In this document: in pieces, positions 1 to 6,235 of the stretch | Layout of the letters: each line of letters begins with the position of its first letter | Position numbering within the stretch: position 1 is the first letter of the stretch | Origin: an uncultured Bryobacteraceae bacterium | Lineage (GTDB): Bacteria > Acidobacteriota > Terriglobia > Bryobacterales > Bryobacteraceae | NCBI GenBank assembly: GCA_938003835.1 | Contig: CALKXJ010000006.1 | Location: 62,001 to 126,000, forward strand | DNA length: 64,000 nucleotides | Reading direction: 5' to 3' | Notes under the pieces: model-generated | Seen by the model: the letters and a program-made list of their open reading frames with translations, nothing else | What the model was told of the DNA's origin: nothing | Databases searched by the model: none | Program-made: the position numbers and the translations under genes

Positions 1-39
1 TCGGGACCTGCACCGCGAACAGCGGACCGGCGCCGGCAT
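1..39 (-). CDS. possible start of a further operon gene, running off the left edge
   Basis: On the minus strand an ATG at 39-37 overlaps by one base the TGA (41-39) of the ArnT-like gene, in the TGATG arrangement typical of translational coupling. Only 13 codons are visible and they are open to the window edge. This is too little to identify a family or even to be sure the ORF is real. It would be the seventh gene of the minus-strand lipid-modification operon. Confidence 0.3.
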   Translation of the reverse strand, partial: MPAPVRCSRCRSR

Positions 40-1739
40 CAACGGCGTGGATAGTCCATAAGGGGCACCGGTTTGTTGGTCACCAGCAGGCGGCCTGCCG
101 ACTCGGCCGCCACGAACGCCGGCTCGAGCCTGAGCTCCGCGACGCGAGCTGCCCGGACGATCAGCCACGTGCGTCCCGGTTGACGCCATCGTGCGAGGAG
201 TTCCTCGCGCTCCATGAGCAGGCGCGGGGCGTCCGGATAGCGCAGGCCGGCCGCCAGGGACGGCGCATCCCCTTCGCAGACGTGTAGGAGAACGGGGGCA
301 TAGAAGTTGACCGAGTTGGCCGTCTCATAGTCGCCGAAAACGGCCACAAGATCCTCCGGTCGCGCCTGGCTCGCCAGCACCAGACCGAAGGGCTTCGAGG
401 AGACTACCGGCTCGGCGGCCCGGATGCTATAAGCGGCAGCACCTCCGAAGACCATCATGCCCGCGGTGAGAGCGGCCACGCTCCAGCGGCGCGCGAGGAA
501 AAATCCCGCCGCGAGAGCCAGCGAAACCACCGCGGCCACCATTGCAAGCTGCCGGAGTAGCTCCGGCGGGAAGTCCGTGAGGATGCTGAAGTCTCTGGCG
601 TGAGTTCGTTCCGGATGGCCGTTGCTGGCGTCGAGGCCGTAGCCGGTGATCGAAACGAGCGCCAGCAAAACTGCCGCCGCAGCCAGCAGGATGCCCAAAG
701 TTGCCAAAGCTTTTCGCTCCCAGACGGACGCGCCCGGCGCGCCCGCCAGCCTCATCCCCGCCAGGATGGCCAGCGGGGGCAGCATGGGAAATGCGTAGTG
801 CTCGAGGCGCGAAGAGGCGGAGAAGAACACGAACGCCAGGCCGACCCAACAAGCCGGCAAAACGGCCGCCCGTCCAAGGCGGCGTGCTCCGACCAGAAAC
901 AAGCTCCAAGGGAACGCCCATACCGGCAGCAGCGCCCAGAACAGCACGAGCGGCACGGACTCATAGTCCACCGGTTCCCGCTTGCCCAGGAAGCGCAGAA
1001 TCTGCTCCTGGTAAAAATAGACGCGCAGGAAGCCGGGATTGCGCCACTCCATCGCGATGTGCCAGGGAAGCGCGAGCGCGGCAAATAGCAGGGCTCCGGC
1101 GAGCAGCCAGCGCCACGGGAGCTTCGGCAACCGGCGTTGAACCGCAGCCTGGAGGGCGATGACGCCGGCGGCCAGAGCTGGGCCGAGCAGACCTTTGGCG
1201 AGAAAGGCCCCGGCGGCGGCGGCGAAGAGGCCGAGCACCGCAGGCGGGCGCGGACGCTCGGCCCGGTCCACAAGGACAGAGCAGTACATGGCGAGCGTCA
1301 AGAAGAACACGAGCAGGATGTCGTGCATCACTTCGAGAGTGAACAGGAAGGTTCCCACCGAGAGGGCAAAGGCGAGACCGGCCGCCATCCCGGCTTGGGG
1401 GCCCGCCAGCAGCTTGCCGATCCGCTGGACGAGAAACGTGGTGCCACAGACGCCGGCGATCGACGGGATGCGGGCGGCGAACTCGCTTTGTCCGAACAGA
1501 GTGTAGGAAAGGGCAATCAACCAGTACAGCAGCGGCGGTTTGTCGAACGACCGGACGCCGTTGACATAGGGGGTAATCCAATCACCCCGCTCGAGCATCT
1601 GCTGCGGGATGTGCACATAGATGCCCTCGTCGGCGTCGGCGATCGCACGCCCGATTGGGGTGAGCCCGTAGACGGCCGCCGCCGCGAGAACCGGGAGCCA
1701 CCCGGCCGGCCCTTTGGAGAGAGAGGCTAAACCCCCCAC
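39..1739 (-). CDS. ArnT/PMT-like membrane glycosyltransferase (GT39/GT83 superfamily)
   Basis: A 566-residue polytopic membrane protein of the GT-C fold. Such enzymes transfer a sugar from a polyprenyl-phosphate donor to a lipid or protein on the outer face of the inner membrane. The N-terminal hydrophobic helix is followed by the family's acidic loop motif DADEGIY (residues 35-41), the likely catalytic Asp/Glu, and by FDKPPLLYW (about 65-73), typical of ArnT and related PMTs. Many hydrophobic helices and a soluble C-terminal region follow. The start is GTG at 1739, overlapping the end of the epimerase gene by 13 bp, so the two are probably coupled. Downstream of an aminotransferase, an epimerase and an EamA half-transporter, it probably does the final sugar transfer of this operon. 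The acceptor (lipid A, hopanoid or other) cannot be read from sequence. Confidence 0.85.
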   Translation of the reverse strand: MGGLASLSKGPAGWLPVLAAAAVYGLTPIGRAIADADEGIYVHIPQQMLERGDWITPYVNGVRSFDKPPLLYWLIALSYTLFGQSEFAARIPSIAGVCGTTFLVQRIGKLLAGPQAGMAAGLAFALSVGTFLFTLEVMHDILLVFFLTLAMYCSVLVDRAERPRPPAVLGLFAAAAGAFLAKGLLGPALAAGVIALQAAVQRRLPKLPWRWLLAGALLFAALALPWHIAMEWRNPGFLRVYFYQEQILRFLGKREPVDYESVPLVLFWALLPVWAFPWSLFLVGARRLGRAAVLPACWVGLAFVFFSASSRLEHYAFPMLPPLAILAGMRLAGAPGASVWERKALATLGILLAAAAVLLALVSITGYGLDASNGHPERTHARDFSILTDFPPELLRQLAMVAAVVSLALAAGFFLARRWSVAALTAGMMVFGGAAAYSIRAAEPVVSSKPFGLVLASQARPEDLVAVFGDYETANSVNFYAPVLLHVCEGDAPSLAAGLRYPDAPRLLMEREELLARWRQPGRTWLIVRAARVAELRLEPAFVAAESAGRLLVTNKPVPLMDYPRR

Positions 1740-2644
1740 TTGGCCCGGAACCAGTCCACCGTGCGGCGCAGCCCTTCCTTGAACTCGATGAGGGGCTCCC
1801 AGCCGAGCTCGCGACGCGCTTTCTCGAAGCTGACCTCTTTGCCCGGGAAGTCGCCCGCCCGCGCGGGAACGAACTCGATGCGCACCTGCTCGCCGAGAAT
1901 CTCGCGGATGCCCTCGGCCACCTCGAGCACCGTGACGCGCCGCGCCCCCTCGATGTTGTAGGTTTCGTTCGCCGCCCGCTCGTCCATGGCCAGCAGGTGC
2001 GCCCGTGCCAGATCGGTCACATAGAGGAACTTGCGGAACTGATCGCCTTTGCCTGAGACGGTGAGGGGCTCGCCGCGCAACGCTTTGCGGATGAAGATCG
2101 GCATCAGCAGCTCCTCGCGCATCCGCGGGCCGTAGGGGATGCCGTAGCGCAGGATGGTCACCGGCAGGCCGTAGAGCTGCTGGTAGTTGTGGCAGAGCAT
2201 CTCGGCGGCGATCTTCGAGCTGGTGTAGATATGGCCGGCGCCGTTCAGATAAAACGGCACCGCTTCATCGACGGCGATGCCGTTCGGCGCGCCGTTATAG
2301 ACCCACACCGTCGAGGCCAGATAAAACCGTTTGACGCCGTTCAGCCGTGCCGCTTCGAGCGCGTGCGCCGTGCCCATGACGTTGAGTCCGGTGGCGTACA
2401 CCGGATACTTGTGCGCCACGTTCACGTTGGAGACCGCCGCCAGGTGGAAGACGTGCTCGGCGCCCCGCGTGGCCGTCAGCACGCCCGAGAAATCCATCAG
2501 ATCGACGTCCTCGAAGCGCACGTCGTCGCGGTGCGGCTTGACGCGGTGGTCGATCACCGTCACTTCATGGCCGGCCTCGACGAGCGCGTCCACCACATGA
2601 GAGCCGATGAACCCGCTTCCTCCGGTCACCACCGTCTTCGCCAT
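1727..2644 (-). CDS. NAD-dependent epimerase/dehydratase (extended SDR)
   Basis: A 305-residue extended short-chain dehydrogenase acting on nucleotide sugars. The NAD-binding glycine motif GGSGFIG lies at residues 8-14 and the catalytic Tyr-X3-Lys at about Tyr140 and Lys144 (YTSSK). Length fits UDP-glucose 4-epimerase-like enzymes. I chose the ATG at 2644: a GGGAGG ribosome-binding site sits 7 bases upstream, whereas the TTG 15 bases earlier lies inside the end of the aminotransferase gene. The operon context suggests that it prepares, or oxidises to a 4-keto form, the sugar that the neighbouring aminotransferase aminates. The substrate is inferred only. Confidence 0.85.
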   Translation of the reverse strand: MAKTVVTGGSGFIGSHVVDALVEAGHEVTVIDHRVKPHRDDVRFEDVDLMDFSGVLTATRGAEHVFHLAAVSNVNVAHKYPVYATGLNVMGTAHALEAARLNGVKRFYLASTVWVYNGAPNGIAVDEAVPFYLNGAGHIYTSSKIAAEMLCHNYQQLYGLPVTILRYGIPYGPRMREELLMPIFIRKALRGEPLTVSGKGDQFRKFLYVTDLARAHLLAMDERAANETYNIEGARRVTVLEVAEGIREILGEQVRIEFVPARAGDFPGKEVSFEKARRELGWEPLIEFKEGLRRTVDWFRAKWGV

Positions 2645-2655
2645 GTACGCCTCCC

Positions 2656-3804
2656 TCAACCAAAGAACGCCGCCAGCGCTTCGATGACCTGGCGCGCCTC
2701 GTCGTCTTCCATGCCGGAGTAAACGGGCAGGCAGATGTGCCGGGCGCAGAGATCCTCGGCTACCGGGAGCGGCCCGCCGGCATACGAGGCAAAAACCGGC
2801 TGCTTGTGCAGGGGCTCCTCGTAGACTTCGCCCGAGAGCGAGACACCGAAGCCCTCGCGTAGCCGGCGCTTGAGTTCCTGTCGGTCCCGCCGCTCGCGCA
2901 TCACCGCGATGTACTTGTAGTAGTTCGAGACGCCTCCCTCGGGCACGCGCAGCGGCTGGAGCCCGCGGAAACCGGCGAGCGCGTCGTCATAGAGGGCGGC
3001 GATGCGCTGCCGGTCGGCGATCATTTCCGGCAGCCGCTCCAGGTGCCGCAGCCCGATGATGGCGTGCGGCTCCGACATCCGCCAGTTGTGGCCCATCCGC
3101 GTGTGCGCGTTCACCAGGAAACTGGCCTTGCCCTGGTCGCGGTAAATGACGGCCTCCTCGGCGATGCGGTCGTCGTTGGTCACCAGCATCCCGCCTTCGG
3201 CCGAAGTCATCACTTTCGTGGGATAGAAGCTGAAGGCGGCGGCCAGACCGAAGGCGCCGGCCATCGTCCCCTGATAGGAGGAGCCGTGCGCATGAGCGGC
3301 GTCCTCGACCAGCGGGATTCCCTTTCGCCGGCACAGCTCCACGAGTTCCGGCAACCGCTCGGAGACCACCCCGCCGATGTGCACCACCACGACGGCCGCC
3401 GTCCTTGCGGTTAGAGCGCGCTCGACGTCCTCCGGCCGGATGGCGAAGCTCGCCGGATCCATGTCGATGAAGACCGGCCGGGCGCCGGCGTGCACCACTG
3501 CGGCGGCGGTGGCAAAGAAGGTGTTGGTCGGCACGACGACCTCCTTGCCTTCCACCCCGATGGCGCGCAAGGCGATCTCGAGCGCCGCCGTGCCGCTCCC
3601 CACCGAGACGGCATGTTTGGTGCCGCACAGGGCGGCGAAGCGCCGCTCGAACTCCTTGCCGTAGCGGCCGAGCGTGAGCATGCCGCTCGCCAGCACTTCG
3701 TCGATCTTTTCCACTATCCAGGCCCGATCCTCCGCCAAGAACTGAACGCGCGCCGCCGGGATCTTTCGCGCGGCCGCGGAAACGGGTGTGTTACTGGCGC
3801 TCAA
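2656..3804 (-). CDS. DegT/DnrJ/EryC1/StrS family PLP aminotransferase (ArnB-like role)
   Basis: A 382-residue PLP-dependent sugar aminotransferase. These enzymes move an amino group from glutamate or glutamine onto a keto-sugar nucleotide. The PLP-binding lysine is Lys197 in SFYPTKVMTSAEGG. Upstream are the substrate and cofactor motifs GSGTAALEIAL (about 69-79), PTNTFFATA (92-100) and EDAAHAHG (167-174). The ATG start at 3804 lies 14 bases inside the end of the EamA half-transporter, and its stop abuts the epimerase. In the arn system ArnB does this step for 4-amino-4-deoxy-L-arabinose. A comparable role here is inference; QuiNAc4N- or perosamine-type sugars are equally possible. Confidence 0.9.
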   Translation of the reverse strand: MSASNTPVSAAARKIPAARVQFLAEDRAWIVEKIDEVLASGMLTLGRYGKEFERRFAALCGTKHAVSVGSGTAALEIALRAIGVEGKEVVVPTNTFFATAAAVVHAGARPVFIDMDPASFAIRPEDVERALTARTAAVVVVHIGGVVSERLPELVELCRRKGIPLVEDAAHAHGSSYQGTMAGAFGLAAAFSFYPTKVMTSAEGGMLVTNDDRIAEEAVIYRDQGKASFLVNAHTRMGHNWRMSEPHAIIGLRHLERLPEMIADRQRIAALYDDALAGFRGLQPLRVPEGGVSNYYKYIAVMRERRDRQELKRRLREGFGVSLSGEVYEEPLHKQPVFASYAGGPLPVAEDLCARHICLPVYSGMEDDEARQVIEALAAFFG

Positions 3805-4234
3805 GATATGCGCTCCCTTTCGTTCGTTGCATGCTGATCTTTGCCTCCGGGGCGGACCTCTCGCCTCCGGCCGTGATGAGGATCACACCCACGATGACGA
3901 AGGCAATCCCCGCCCACCGCATCGGCGGAACTGCTTCCTTCAGGAGCGTGACGGCTAGAACAGCAGTGAAGGCATATTCTAGCGCAGTGAGCGGCACCGC
4001 CACCGTCACTTCACTCCAGGAGAGCGCGGCCAGGATGCAGAAGTAAAAGACCGCGCTCAGGGCCGTCCCGGCGATCACGTATGGCTGGCAGAGGGCTTTC
4101 CAGAAATAGGCCAGCACCTCGAGCGGCATGTAGCTTTCCATCGATCCGACGATCTGCATGCCTCGCCGCAAAAAGATCTGTCCCACCGCTCCGGCGAGCG
4201 TGGCGACCACCACCGCGATCAGTGTACGCAGCAA
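3791..4234 (-). CDS. small EamA/DMT half-transporter (ArnE/ArnF-like)
   Basis: A 147-residue membrane protein with four or five hydrophobic helices, half the size of a full EamA permease and comparable to ArnE/ArnF, the paired flippase subunits for undecaprenyl-phosphate-linked L-Ara4N. The C-terminal tail (about residues 125-147) is polar. The only start consistent with the upstream region is TTG at 4234, preceded at 10 bases by AGGAGG. It overlaps the HpnK-like gene (16 bp) and the aminotransferase gene (14 bp). Only one half-subunit is visible, so it would work as a homodimer or with a partner outside the window. Flipping a lipid-linked amino sugar is a context-based inference. Confidence 0.8.
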   Translation of the reverse strand: MLRTLIAVVVATLAGAVGQIFLRRGMQIVGSMESYMPLEVLAYFWKALCQPYVIAGTALSAVFYFCILAALSWSEVTVAVPLTALEYAFTAVLAVTLLKEAVPPMRWAGIAFVIVGVILITAGGERSAPEAKISMQRTKGSAYLERQ

Positions 4235-5061
4235 CGTTCTTGTTCCTCCTGATGGAGCCTTAGGCGGCGAAAGCTCGTGAGCTCGGCCCCGGCGATCTCG
4301 ATCGCCCGGCGGACCTCTTCGCTCACCAGCGCTTCATATTCAGCCCGGCAGCGGTAGCCCGGCAGCGCCTGCTCGATGGCGGGCGAGGGCCGCGTCGCCG
4401 GATGAAAGTAAATCTCGGTCACGCCGTCAGGAAGCCGGCCGAGCAGCTCGATGAGGCGCGCCGTGTCCATGGCGCCCGAGTGCTCGAGGCCCAGCACCCA
4501 GTCGTTAGTGACCATTCCCGCCCCGCGAAGCCGCCGGCGCAGCAGCGCTAGCCACGGGGCCAGCGCCCAACTGCCGCCCGGTTCGGCCGGCAGCCGCATC
4601 GACCGCATTCCGTAATCGCGCCCGATCTCGAGCACCAGGGCCAGGATCGTCGGATGCAAGTGCATGTGGTTGTGCACGTCGACGTGCCCCGGCTCGAGCC
4701 CCGTGCGGGCGAACGCCTCGAACTGGGCCCGGATCTCACGCTCCAACTGGCGCCGCGCCGCCGGAAGGAAGAAAAACGCGACGCCCGCCCGCACGAGGTT
4801 CCAGTGAAATTCGCCGTTGCGGTCCACCAGATCCGGAACCTCGGCCGGAGGCAACACGGGGCGCCCCCGCACGAGCGTGACGTGCAGGCCCACTTCGAGC
4901 GTGCCGAGGCGCCGCGCCCGCTCGACGGCGTCTTGCGCTGCCGGGGCGCCCACCATCAGGCCGGCGGTGGTGAGCACGCCCCGGCGGTGCGCCTCCTCGA
5001 CGGCCTCGTTCACCGCGACATCCAGCCCGAAATCATCCGCCGTGACGATCAGCTTACGCAC
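4219..5061 (-). CDS. hpnK: HpnK/YdjC-ChbG-like carbohydrate deacetylase
   Basis: A 280-residue member of the YdjC/ChbG deacetylase family, close in style to hopanoid-associated HpnK, which removes the acetyl group from GlcNAc-bacteriohopanetetrol. The metal and catalytic motif TADDFG is at residues 7-12, and a His-rich motif (H126, D128, H130, H132, H134) matches the family's metal site. I chose the GTG at 5061, four bases past the HpnI stop with a GGGGG stretch as possible Shine-Dalgarno; the longer reading to 5109 would lie inside hpnI. The adjacent HpnI-like transferase supports the HpnK reading. HpnJ, the radical-SAM partner that would make the cyclitol ether, is not in the window. Confidence 0.85.
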   Translation of the reverse strand: MRKLIVTADDFGLDVAVNEAVEEAHRRGVLTTAGLMVGAPAAQDAVERARRLGTLEVGLHVTLVRGRPVLPPAEVPDLVDRNGEFHWNLVRAGVAFFFLPAARRQLEREIRAQFEAFARTGLEPGHVDVHNHMHLHPTILALVLEIGRDYGMRSMRLPAEPGGSWALAPWLALLRRRLRGAGMVTNDWVLGLEHSGAMDTARLIELLGRLPDGVTEIYFHPATRPSPAIEQALPGYRCRAEYEALVSEEVRRAIEIAGAELTSFRRLRLHQEEQERCCVH

Positions 5062-5065
5062 CTGG

Positions 5066-6235
5066 TCAACCCCCGAGCTCCGACTGCTTGGCCAGGAGCC
5101 GGCCGTCACGCGTCAGGATGAAGTCGGCGCCCCGCCAGTGGGTGGTTCCTTTGACGAAGGAAAGCAGCCAGGAGGCGAAACCCGCCAGGTCGCGCAACGG
5201 CAGCAGCCACAGGGCTCGCACGCCTTCGCGATCGTTGAAGCCCCAGCCGAGGATGAAGGCTGCCGTGGCCAGCCGCCATGCCACACTCGAGGCCAGCAGG
5301 CTGGAGCCCGCGGCATCGAAACCGCGCGCCATCCAGGCCAGCAGCGCAAACGGAACCATCCGGATGATCAGCGTCAGAAAGAAGGCCACGGGCCGCGCCG
5401 CGCGCGTGTTCTGATCCCAGTACACCTGGTGCCTCCACCATTGCGCCGCCGTCTTCAAGTCGACCATCGTGTCGATCACGGGCGGCACGAAGGCGTAGCC
5501 GTAGCCGAGCTCTCGGATCCGGCGGCCGAGCTCGTAATCTTCGACCAGATAGTCCGCCAGGGCCGCCAGCCCGCCGATCTTCTCGAGCATCTCGGTGCGG
5601 AGCGCAATCGAGGCGCCCAAACAGAACGCCGACAGGCCGGTCTCATAGGCGAAGATCACGCTCGGCATGAAGTCGGCGTTCAGCGACAGCAGCTCCAGCT
5701 TCTCGAACCAGCGATCCGCGCAAGCGGCCTTATAGGGGGTGCAGACGTAACCGAGGCGCTCGTCGGCCACCAGGGGCGCCACAATGGCTTTCAAATAGCC
5801 CGGCTCCAGGCGCACGTCGCTGTCGCTGATCACCAGCACCGGATGGCGCACGTAGGGCATGGCGCCGAGCATGTTGTTGATCTTGCCGTTGGCGCCGGCG
5901 CGCTGCTCGTCGACGGCGACGATGACCTTATCGGGGCCGAACTCGCGCTGGACCTCGTAGAGCAGTCCGAGCGCCGGGTCGTCACGCCGCTGCACCGAGA
6001 AGATGACTTCGAACTCGGGGTAGTCCTGCATCACCGTGGAGCGCAGATTCTCTCGCAGGTTCTTCTCGAGCCCTGTGACGGGCTTGACGACGCTCACCGC
6101 CGGCCAGCGCCGGGGCGGAGGTGCGGGCCGGCGCAAGCGCCAGCGGACCATGGCGGCGACACAAAGCAGGTGATAGAGCGCCCCGGCCGCCACCGGAACC
6201 AGCAGGATCCACCCGAGTGCGTTCCACCAGGACAT
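5066..6235 (-). CDS. hpnI: HpnI-like glycosyltransferase (GT2/GT21, ceramide-glucosyltransferase type)
   Basis: A 389-residue membrane-anchored glycosyltransferase. An N-terminal helix (about 5-30) precedes the GT-A domain with VSVVKPVTG (48-55), the DXD-like SDSD (137-140), a third acidic motif ED (232-233) and a QVYWDQ stretch (270-275) equivalent to the (Q/R)XXRW motif. Hydrophobic helices close the protein. This layout is that of GT21 and of HpnI, which adds N-acetylglucosamine to bacteriohopanetetrol. The ATG start is at 6235. It is the first gene of the six-gene minus-strand operon, followed after 4 bp by the HpnK-like deacetylase. Whether the acceptor is a hopanoid or another polyprenoid lipid is unresolved. 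Confidence 0.85.
   Translation of the reverse strand: MSWWNALGWILLVPVAAGALYHLLCVAAMVRWRLRRPAPPPRRWPAVSVVKPVTGLEKNLRENLRSTVMQDYPEFEVIFSVQRRDDPALGLLYEVQREFGPDKVIVAVDEQRAGANGKINNMLGAMPYVRHPVLVISDSDVRLEPGYLKAIVAPLVADERLGYVCTPYKAACADRWFEKLELLSLNADFMPSVIFAYETGLSAFCLGASIALRTEMLEKIGGLAALADYLVEDYELGRRIRELGYGYAFVPPVIDTMVDLKTAAQWWRHQVYWDQNTRAARPVAFFLTLIIRMVPFALLAWMARGFDAAGSSLLASSVAWRLATAAFILGWGFNDREGVRALWLLPLRDLAGFASWLLSFVKGTTHWRGADFILTRDGRLLAKQSELGG

Follow-up and report, generated by a model that had tools for sequence, protein, structure and literature searches.

Bacteriohopanepolyol (BHP) derivatives are used extensively as biomarkers, and the described pathway closest to the system reported here leads to the cyclitol ether of bacteriohopanetetrol (BHT) through HpnI, HpnK and HpnJ, the first two enzymes taking BHT to BHT-N-acetylglucosamine and then to BHT-glucosamine (PMC12583986; this and the other papers cited are represented here by excerpts). 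The same source gives 100% BHT glucosamine for Rhodoligotrophos appendicifer, which is without hpnJ; in Acidobacteria subdivisions 1 and 3, hpnI and hpnJ are present and hpnK is absent (PMC5462960). Here we analyze a six-gene operon in a 64,000-nucleotide stretch of DNA (hereafter the window; C6:62001-126000, on contig CALKXJ010000006.1 of a 5.0 Mb, 38-contig genome) from an uncultured Bryobacteraceae bacterium. The operon shares with the cyclitol ether pathway its adjacent HpnI and HpnK families and a genome that bears hopanoid genes, but it lacks HpnJ and has four more genes, for an EamA transporter, a DegT aminotransferase, a short-chain dehydrogenase/reductase (SDR) and an ArnT-like transferase. 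We predict from these genes that the operon probably encodes a variant BHP head-group pathway.

A six-gene operon around HpnI and HpnK

The genes overlap on the minus strand across window positions 39-6235, and open reading frame (ORF) and profile searches bear out the coordinates and families given in a preliminary description of the window, including the HpnI and HpnK identities. We refer to the genes as I, K, E, D, S and T:

5066..6235, minus strand: I, an HpnI-type GT21 glycosyltransferase (TIGR03472, 311.2 bits, cut-off 310; PF13506), predicted UDP-N-acetylglucosamine:BHT transferase
4219..5109, minus strand: K, an HpnK (YdjC) deacetylase (TIGR03473, 371.7 bits, cut-off 232.6), predicted product BHT-glucosamine
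3791..4234, minus strand: E, a half-size EamA transporter of 147 amino acids (PF00892, 37.5 bits; weak ArnE/ArnF matches), predicted flippase
2656..3804, minus strand: D, a pyridoxal phosphate-dependent aminotransferase of the DegT/DnrJ/EryC1/StrS family (PF01041, 374 bits)
1727..2659, minus strand: S, an extended SDR of GalE/UXS type (PF01370), predicted NAD-dependent sugar oxidoreductase and partner of D
39..1739, minus strand: T, an ArnT-like GT-C transferase (PMT_2; NF009784, 134 bits, cut-off 567), a lineage-specific add-on

With the starts used, the junctions I/K, K/E, E/D, D/S and S/T overlap by 44, 16, 14, 4 and 13 bases, sizes that are approximate because several starts are GTG or TTG. 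These overlapping junctions fit a single operon.

The assignment of K to HpnK is strong by profile score. K shares 47-56% identity with annotated Burkholderiales HpnK, keeps the DDFG and HxHxHP-type stretches, and is at most 36% identical to the other YdjC-type matches listed (25 of 82), save one unannotated 48% match from Methylobacterium. The score of I is marginal and falls within HpnI by 1.2 bits over the TIGR03472 equivalog cut-off, which was passed in 26 of the 37 genomes searched (34 loci of the HpnI scan described below plus G000, the window's own genome, G029 and G033) and in 0 of 14 controls. I is the single HpnI of its genome at E<=1e-50, and it is 57-58% identical to the HpnI of locus L079, around which lie homologues of shc, hpnG, hpnA, hpnN and hpnJ (the names hpnN, and hpnL below, denote similarity to cluster members; only HpnL was scanned by model, and it scored under its cut-off). 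As the preliminary description had noted, HpnJ is absent: no protein of the genome reaches the HpnJ cut-off (best 84.2 bits versus 577.6), which places it outside the cyclitol ether pathway.

Hopanoid genes and the fate of BHT-glucosamine

By gene content, the window's genome is predicted to make hopanoids. It has one squalene-hopene cyclase gene (shc; 625 bits, TIGR01507) clustered with hpnC (339.8 bits, cut-off 250.5), hpnD (273.7, just under the cut-off of 278.6), an hpnG-like gene (144.6, under the cut-off of 187.1) and hpnA (455.9, cut-off 367.7), and hpnH lies between hpnA and shc (C5:147331-148206; 428 bits, cut-off 225).

We scanned genomes with the HpnI protein, which gave 72 loci, and determined gene content by tblastn with the six operon proteins. 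Co-occurrence was counted in 51 HpnI-bearing genomes, made up of 49 of these loci plus G000 and G029. The 23 loci outside these counts are L094, L097, L100-L104, L108, L111, L113, L117-L119, L121, L123, L125, L130, L133, L138 and L144-L147; L094 lies on a contig equal in length to that of G029, those from L097 to L138 are all cyanobacterial except L123, and L144-L147 are 25-31% matches. Among the 51, without correction for phylogeny, shc occurs in 47, HpnH in 47, both in 45 and either in 49, and HpnH occurs in 0 of 14 control genomes. In genomes with the cassette (I with K, plus E or D, no more than 4 kb away), 24/25 have shc or HpnH and 20/25 have both. A draw of 119 Elusimicrobiota genomes contained nine with shc and six with an HpnI-like protein above 170 bits, all six shc-positive; with the centre genome removed, HpnI-like proteins occur in 5/8 shc-positive and 0/110 shc-negative genomes (Fisher p 3e-7).

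Hopanoid genes also lie beside the cassette itself. In deltaproteobacterial bins, an hpnA gene (431-447 bits, cut-off 367.7) begins within 1 base after S in L124, overlaps S in L127, and stands ~1.0 kb past S in L141 and ~2.7 kb past it in L132. In L136, I-K is preceded by an hpnA homologue, and the locus also contains shc. Relatives of D (53-62% identical) lie within ~8 kb of HpnI in six loci with an HpnL homologue (L105, L106, L115, L120, L129 and L140). We consider a hopanoid acceptor well supported. The preliminary description had proposed an amino-sugar pathway acting on a hopanoid, lipid A or a polyprenyl carrier; an amino-sugar pathway is probable, and the co-occurrence with shc and hpnH favors the hopanoid and disfavors the other two acceptors.

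Across the 51 genomes, HpnJ reaches its cut-off in 25: in 0/12 where I has K and one E nearby, in 5/8 with K and two E genes, and in 20/31 others (single-E class versus the rest, Fisher 9e-5, uncorrected for kinship). BHT-glucosamine should therefore have another fate in the single-E genomes. As five of the eight genomes with K and two E genes do carry HpnJ, the cassette cannot be taken as a mere substitute for HpnJ. A different arrangement is found in 17 relatives' loci (L058-L073 and L075), where an HpnI-type glycosyltransferase stands beside EamA genes (two in 14/17, one in 2/17), as in the operon, but HpnJ is next to it in 16/17 and HpnK in 1/17 (L069), the opposite set to that of the operon, and the HpnI proteins are only 33-38% identical to that of the window. 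This EamA-HpnI pairing may be the usual hopanoid flippase pair of the lineage. The same observation takes in loci L142 and L143.

Gene order across phyla

Beyond the window, the full order I-K-E-D-S-T was found in one other genome, G033 (L076), the closest relative. Five Nitrospirota loci (L082, L089, L090, L093 and L095) have I-K-E-D-S, and the deltaproteobacterial bins L124, L131 and L132 have I-K-E-E-D-S, an order that L141 shares, though its I is truncated and a gap follows; a further deltaproteobacterial bin, L127, has I-K-D-S. Among Elusimicrobia, L134 and L139 have I-K-E-E and carry S and D on the opposite strand, L126 has S only and L135 has neither. Other Acidobacteriota carry I-K-E-D (L081, L084), I-K-E (L085-L087, the contigs of L085 and L086 stopping at that point), I-K-D (L078, L083, L137), I-K at a contig end (L077), or I-E-D-S-T with no K there (L080). 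Among 120 relatives searched together with the window's genome, a close HpnI occurs in G033 (72%) and G029 (55%) alone, and TIGR03473 is over its cut-off in 3/20 genomes tested (G000, G033 and G029). The cassette is thus rare among near relatives, yet its order is kept across phyla. The refuting condition named in the preliminary description, a gene order not conserved in relatives, does not hold: other phyla preserve the order of five of the six genes, although the six-gene order recurs once and most near relatives lack it. Two ORFs after I-K in L057 (10315-11856 and 11995-13176) were judged by eye to be wrong-frame artefacts and are therefore not usable as genes following I-K in G029.

A quick tree of 83 HpnI rows, from which L076, L094, L133, L138 and L145-L147 were omitted, places the window protein next to L056 (support 100), within a 19-row clade (support 93); besides L079 and three unclassed rows, this clade holds 15 rows of the cassette class.

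Two further HpnI loci were observed. L129 (CAMCBY010000007.1), from a metagenome-assembled genome labelled Klebsiella pneumoniae that has shc and a hopanoid locus, encodes an HpnI sister to that of the Gammaproteobacteria bin L140, and the species label is probably wrong. The Paraburkholderia graminis plasmid pPHS1_P (L179, NZ_CP024936.1), typed as conjugative, carries hpnJ-hpnI and a separate overlapping hpnI-hpnK pair; BHP head-group genes can therefore be plasmid-borne.

The gene beyond window position 1 (L004 11243-12061, plus strand, 272 amino acids, sub-threshold DUF3943 match only) is convergent with T, which makes T the last gene of the operon; in G033, too, a homologue of this gene lies beyond T. 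Further operon members beyond position 1 were considered and rejected, as no same-strand gene adjoins T there. An RNA fold of window positions 1-60 showed no hairpin just after T better than shuffles (z 0.44), a terminator scan gave 12 sites against a shuffle mean of 4.5 with none just after T, and a scan for sigma-70 promoters found none.

Proposed route and rival explanations

In the pathway that we propose, HpnI would put N-acetylglucosamine on BHT and HpnK would deacetylate it to BHT-glucosamine, steps assigned by family; HpnJ, which would yield the cyclitol ether, is missing. S may then oxidize and D transaminate one sugar hydroxyl, acting on the UDP-sugar ahead of the transfer or, alternatively, on the BHT glycoside, to give a di-amino-sugar BHP. 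E would act as an antiparallel half-transporter dimer, as its family and charge bias suggest, and carry the cationic glycolipid to the periplasmic leaflet. Outside the membrane, T in Acidobacteriota, or an LtaS-like enzyme at the same place in some Nitrospirota, may modify the hopanoid head group; this is the weakest step. As a tentative possibility, the products would form a new hopanoid class, a diamino-sugar BHT glycoside made by HpnI-HpnK-S-D in Acidobacteriota, Nitrospirota, Deltaproteobacteria and Elusimicrobiota, flipped by a dedicated EamA hopanoid flippase and then extended outside by ArnT-like (Acidobacteriota) or LtaS-like (Nitrospirota) enzymes. To our knowledge, such a route would provide the first case of a triterpenoid decorated by an ArnT-type enzyme and the first inner-membrane flippase assigned to BHPs.

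The chemistry of S and D is suggested by their relatives. The best-scoring solved structures for D are perosamine synthetases, with QdtB, ArnB and others also matched, and D relatives are 53-77% identical in HpnI loci (56-77% where kept in order with I and K). S reaches the cut-off of none of the specific models listed and resembles GalE and UXS. Aligned to UXS1, it has TVWVY where UXS1 has the catalytic TSEVY, and the motif ASTxWVY is present in 20/20 S orthologue rows (two of them from one genome). The Glu of TSE has the catalytic role in ArnA, and RmlB has an Asp-Glu pair. We had considered both an ArnA-type decarboxylase and a 4,6-dehydratase for S, but as it lacks this ArnA/UXS Glu, neither role is likely. 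We infer instead that S and D form an oxidize-then-transaminate pair acting on a UDP-sugar or a lipid. A cyanobacterium is known to contain a 6-amino-6-deoxyglucosyl BHT.

Single-gene, dual-topology transporters have a charge bias near zero, and the members of antiparallel pairs have unequal bias. We calculated the bias in lysine plus arginine for E by assuming four helices placed by hydrophobicity alone, with several ORFs over-extended at one end. The bias of the window E is 0, and E proteins encoded singly beside K range from -3 to +2 (12 values, with L056 and L076 one genome and no value for L085). In the eight cassette-type loci with K and two E genes, the bias runs from -4 to -10 for the first E and from 0 to +3 for the second; of 16 other E pairs, 13 have the second E at -5 or lower (the second E of L072, 514 amino acids, is untrustworthy). 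This pattern fits a flippase of two half-transporters and would place E among antiparallel transporters, and its cargo would be a hopanoid glycolipid.

T aligns with the ArnT structure 5ezm. Among the 51 genomes, T homologues above 330 bits occur in 12/15 Acidobacteriota and 0/36 others (next best 231 bits, G029), and among the 120 relatives and the window's genome in G000, G033 and G032. T is near cassette genes in five of the 12 (G000, G121, G122, G125 and G126); in the stretches examined of G123, G128-G132 and G164, it stands without any other query gene. In Nitrospirota, an LtaS-like gene of sulfatase fold follows S in L089, L090, L093 and L095; none was found in L082. L089 and L090 also have an Omp85 gene downstream and, upstream, genes for a sensor kinase and an NtrC-type regulator; some of these assignments come from cluster membership alone.

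The arn operon, which adds 4-amino-4-deoxy-L-arabinose to lipid A, shares the outline of this operon, namely a glycosyltransferase, deacetylase, half-transporter, aminotransferase, SDR and GT-C transferase. The preliminary description had seen in the operon a full functional arn parts list, with a nucleotide-sugar epimerase as the ArnA equivalent, a reading that we do not retain. I is a GT21 enzyme in place of ArnC, which is GT2, and HpnK replaces ArnD. The S motif does not look ArnA-like, T is far below the ArnT cut-off, which leaves both outside their arn families, and among the 51 genomes close T homologues were found in Acidobacteriota only.

Several findings weigh against the hopanoid pathway that we favor. 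Although I passes the HpnI cut-off, it does so barely, and carriers in G033 (298 bits), Deltaproteobacteria, Elusimicrobia and Gammaproteobacteria fall below it at 286-308 bits. In a further difference from the cyclitol ether pathway, I is only ~30% identical to the three Burkholderiales HpnI compared. Cassette genes are missing beside I in several Acidobacteriota, with no K in L080, no E in L078, L083 and L137, and no D or S in L087. Neither shc nor HpnH was found in G165, a cassette genome, or in G168, another of the 51; the co-occurrence counts are uncorrected for shared descent, and the five Elusimicrobiota HpnI behind the Fisher test are 31-37% identical and not of cassette type. A close T also occurs in G032, which has no close HpnI, and HpnJ is present in most genomes with K and two E genes. 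Finally, D-S pairs occur outside hopanoid loci, on Anabaena and Streptomyces plasmids, so the pair is not hopanoid-specific.

These pairs lend weight to the explanation that D and S supply T or some other glycoconjugate with a nucleotide amino sugar and have nothing but the operon in common with hpnI and hpnK. On the Anabaena plasmid, adjacent homologues (D 44%, S 45%) lie near galE and a sulfotransferase gene, and on a Streptomyces sp. SAT1 plasmid (L183), overlapping homologues (42% each) lie with APH(7'')-Ia and a radical SAM gene; both have the same motif W. The Streptomyces cluster shares with the operon its overlapping DegT-SDR pair and this motif but is of antibiotic type, with no HpnI, HpnK or EamA named in its annotated stretch. 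Nitrospirota and deltaproteobacterial loci, however, keep D-S with I-K though they are without a close T, and D lies near HpnI and HpnL homologues in the six marine-type or gammaproteobacterial loci above, five of them without S. We consider a separate role for D and S unlikely. A somewhat greater chance, though still a doubtful one, attaches to BHT-glucosamine being the end product of HpnI and HpnK, with E exporting it and the remaining genes unrelated cargo. The composition of R. appendicifer fits this explanation, as do the I-K-E loci without D and S (L085-L087), though the contigs of two of them end there; the 56-77% conservation of D, and its order with I and K across phyla, speak against it.

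A lipid A hexosamine system, the first idea considered from the outline of YdjC, EamA and ArnT-like parts, is improbable. In the Francisella FlmF2/NaxD/FlmK and Bordetella Lgm schemes, a glycosyltransferase loads an N-acetylhexosamine on undecaprenyl phosphate, a YdjC protein deacetylates it, EamA flips it, and an ArnT-like enzyme transfers it to lipid A. The operon agrees with this in outline, including the alignment of T with ArnT, and LgmB attaches glucosamine to the phosphates of lipid A (PMC8168481). This idea is weakened by the presence of shc or HpnH in nearly all cassette genomes and by the kinship of K to annotated HpnK (NaxD and LgmC lay outside that comparison); I and K are also HpnI and HpnK by model, and none of the 51 genomes outside Acidobacteriota has a T above 330 bits.

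A literature search on hopanoids found no description of the cassette; it did not cover a 2022 nitrifier BHP study, which may already show the product. Neither flippase nor EamA appears as a word in the main text of PMC12583986, the single paper searched for both. A Leptospirillum cluster has been described in which shc is listed together with an EamA protein, a glycosyl transferase and a B12/radical SAM enzyme (PMC12654047), hpnI and hpnJ are named in Leptospirillum and not in Nitrospira marina in excerpts of PMC7231039, and shc and hpnH were noted in marine Nitrospirales (PMC10579370). If the predicted amino-sugar BHP is made, the cassette would point to a source for unassigned BHP peaks, and provide a gene test for them, in Nitrospirota, Acidobacteriota and the few shc-bearing Elusimicrobia, and would bear on hopanoids as environmental and fossil markers. 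E is a candidate inner-membrane flippase for hopanoid glycolipids.

The aminoglycoside-type Streptomyces cluster is a lead to the chemistry of the D-S pair, and a literature search for a link through hygromycin or destomic acid found nothing relevant among the papers listed. A second DegT (~50% identical to that of L128) lies near HpnI in L092, L098, L117, L119, L121, L122, L128 and L130, whose carriers are cyanobacteria, an offshore Nitrospira bin and a deltaproteobacterial bin. In five of these eight loci (L092, L098, L121, L128 and L130) it is followed by a gene for an FAD-dependent oxidoreductase, which looks like another oxidize-and-transaminate pair.

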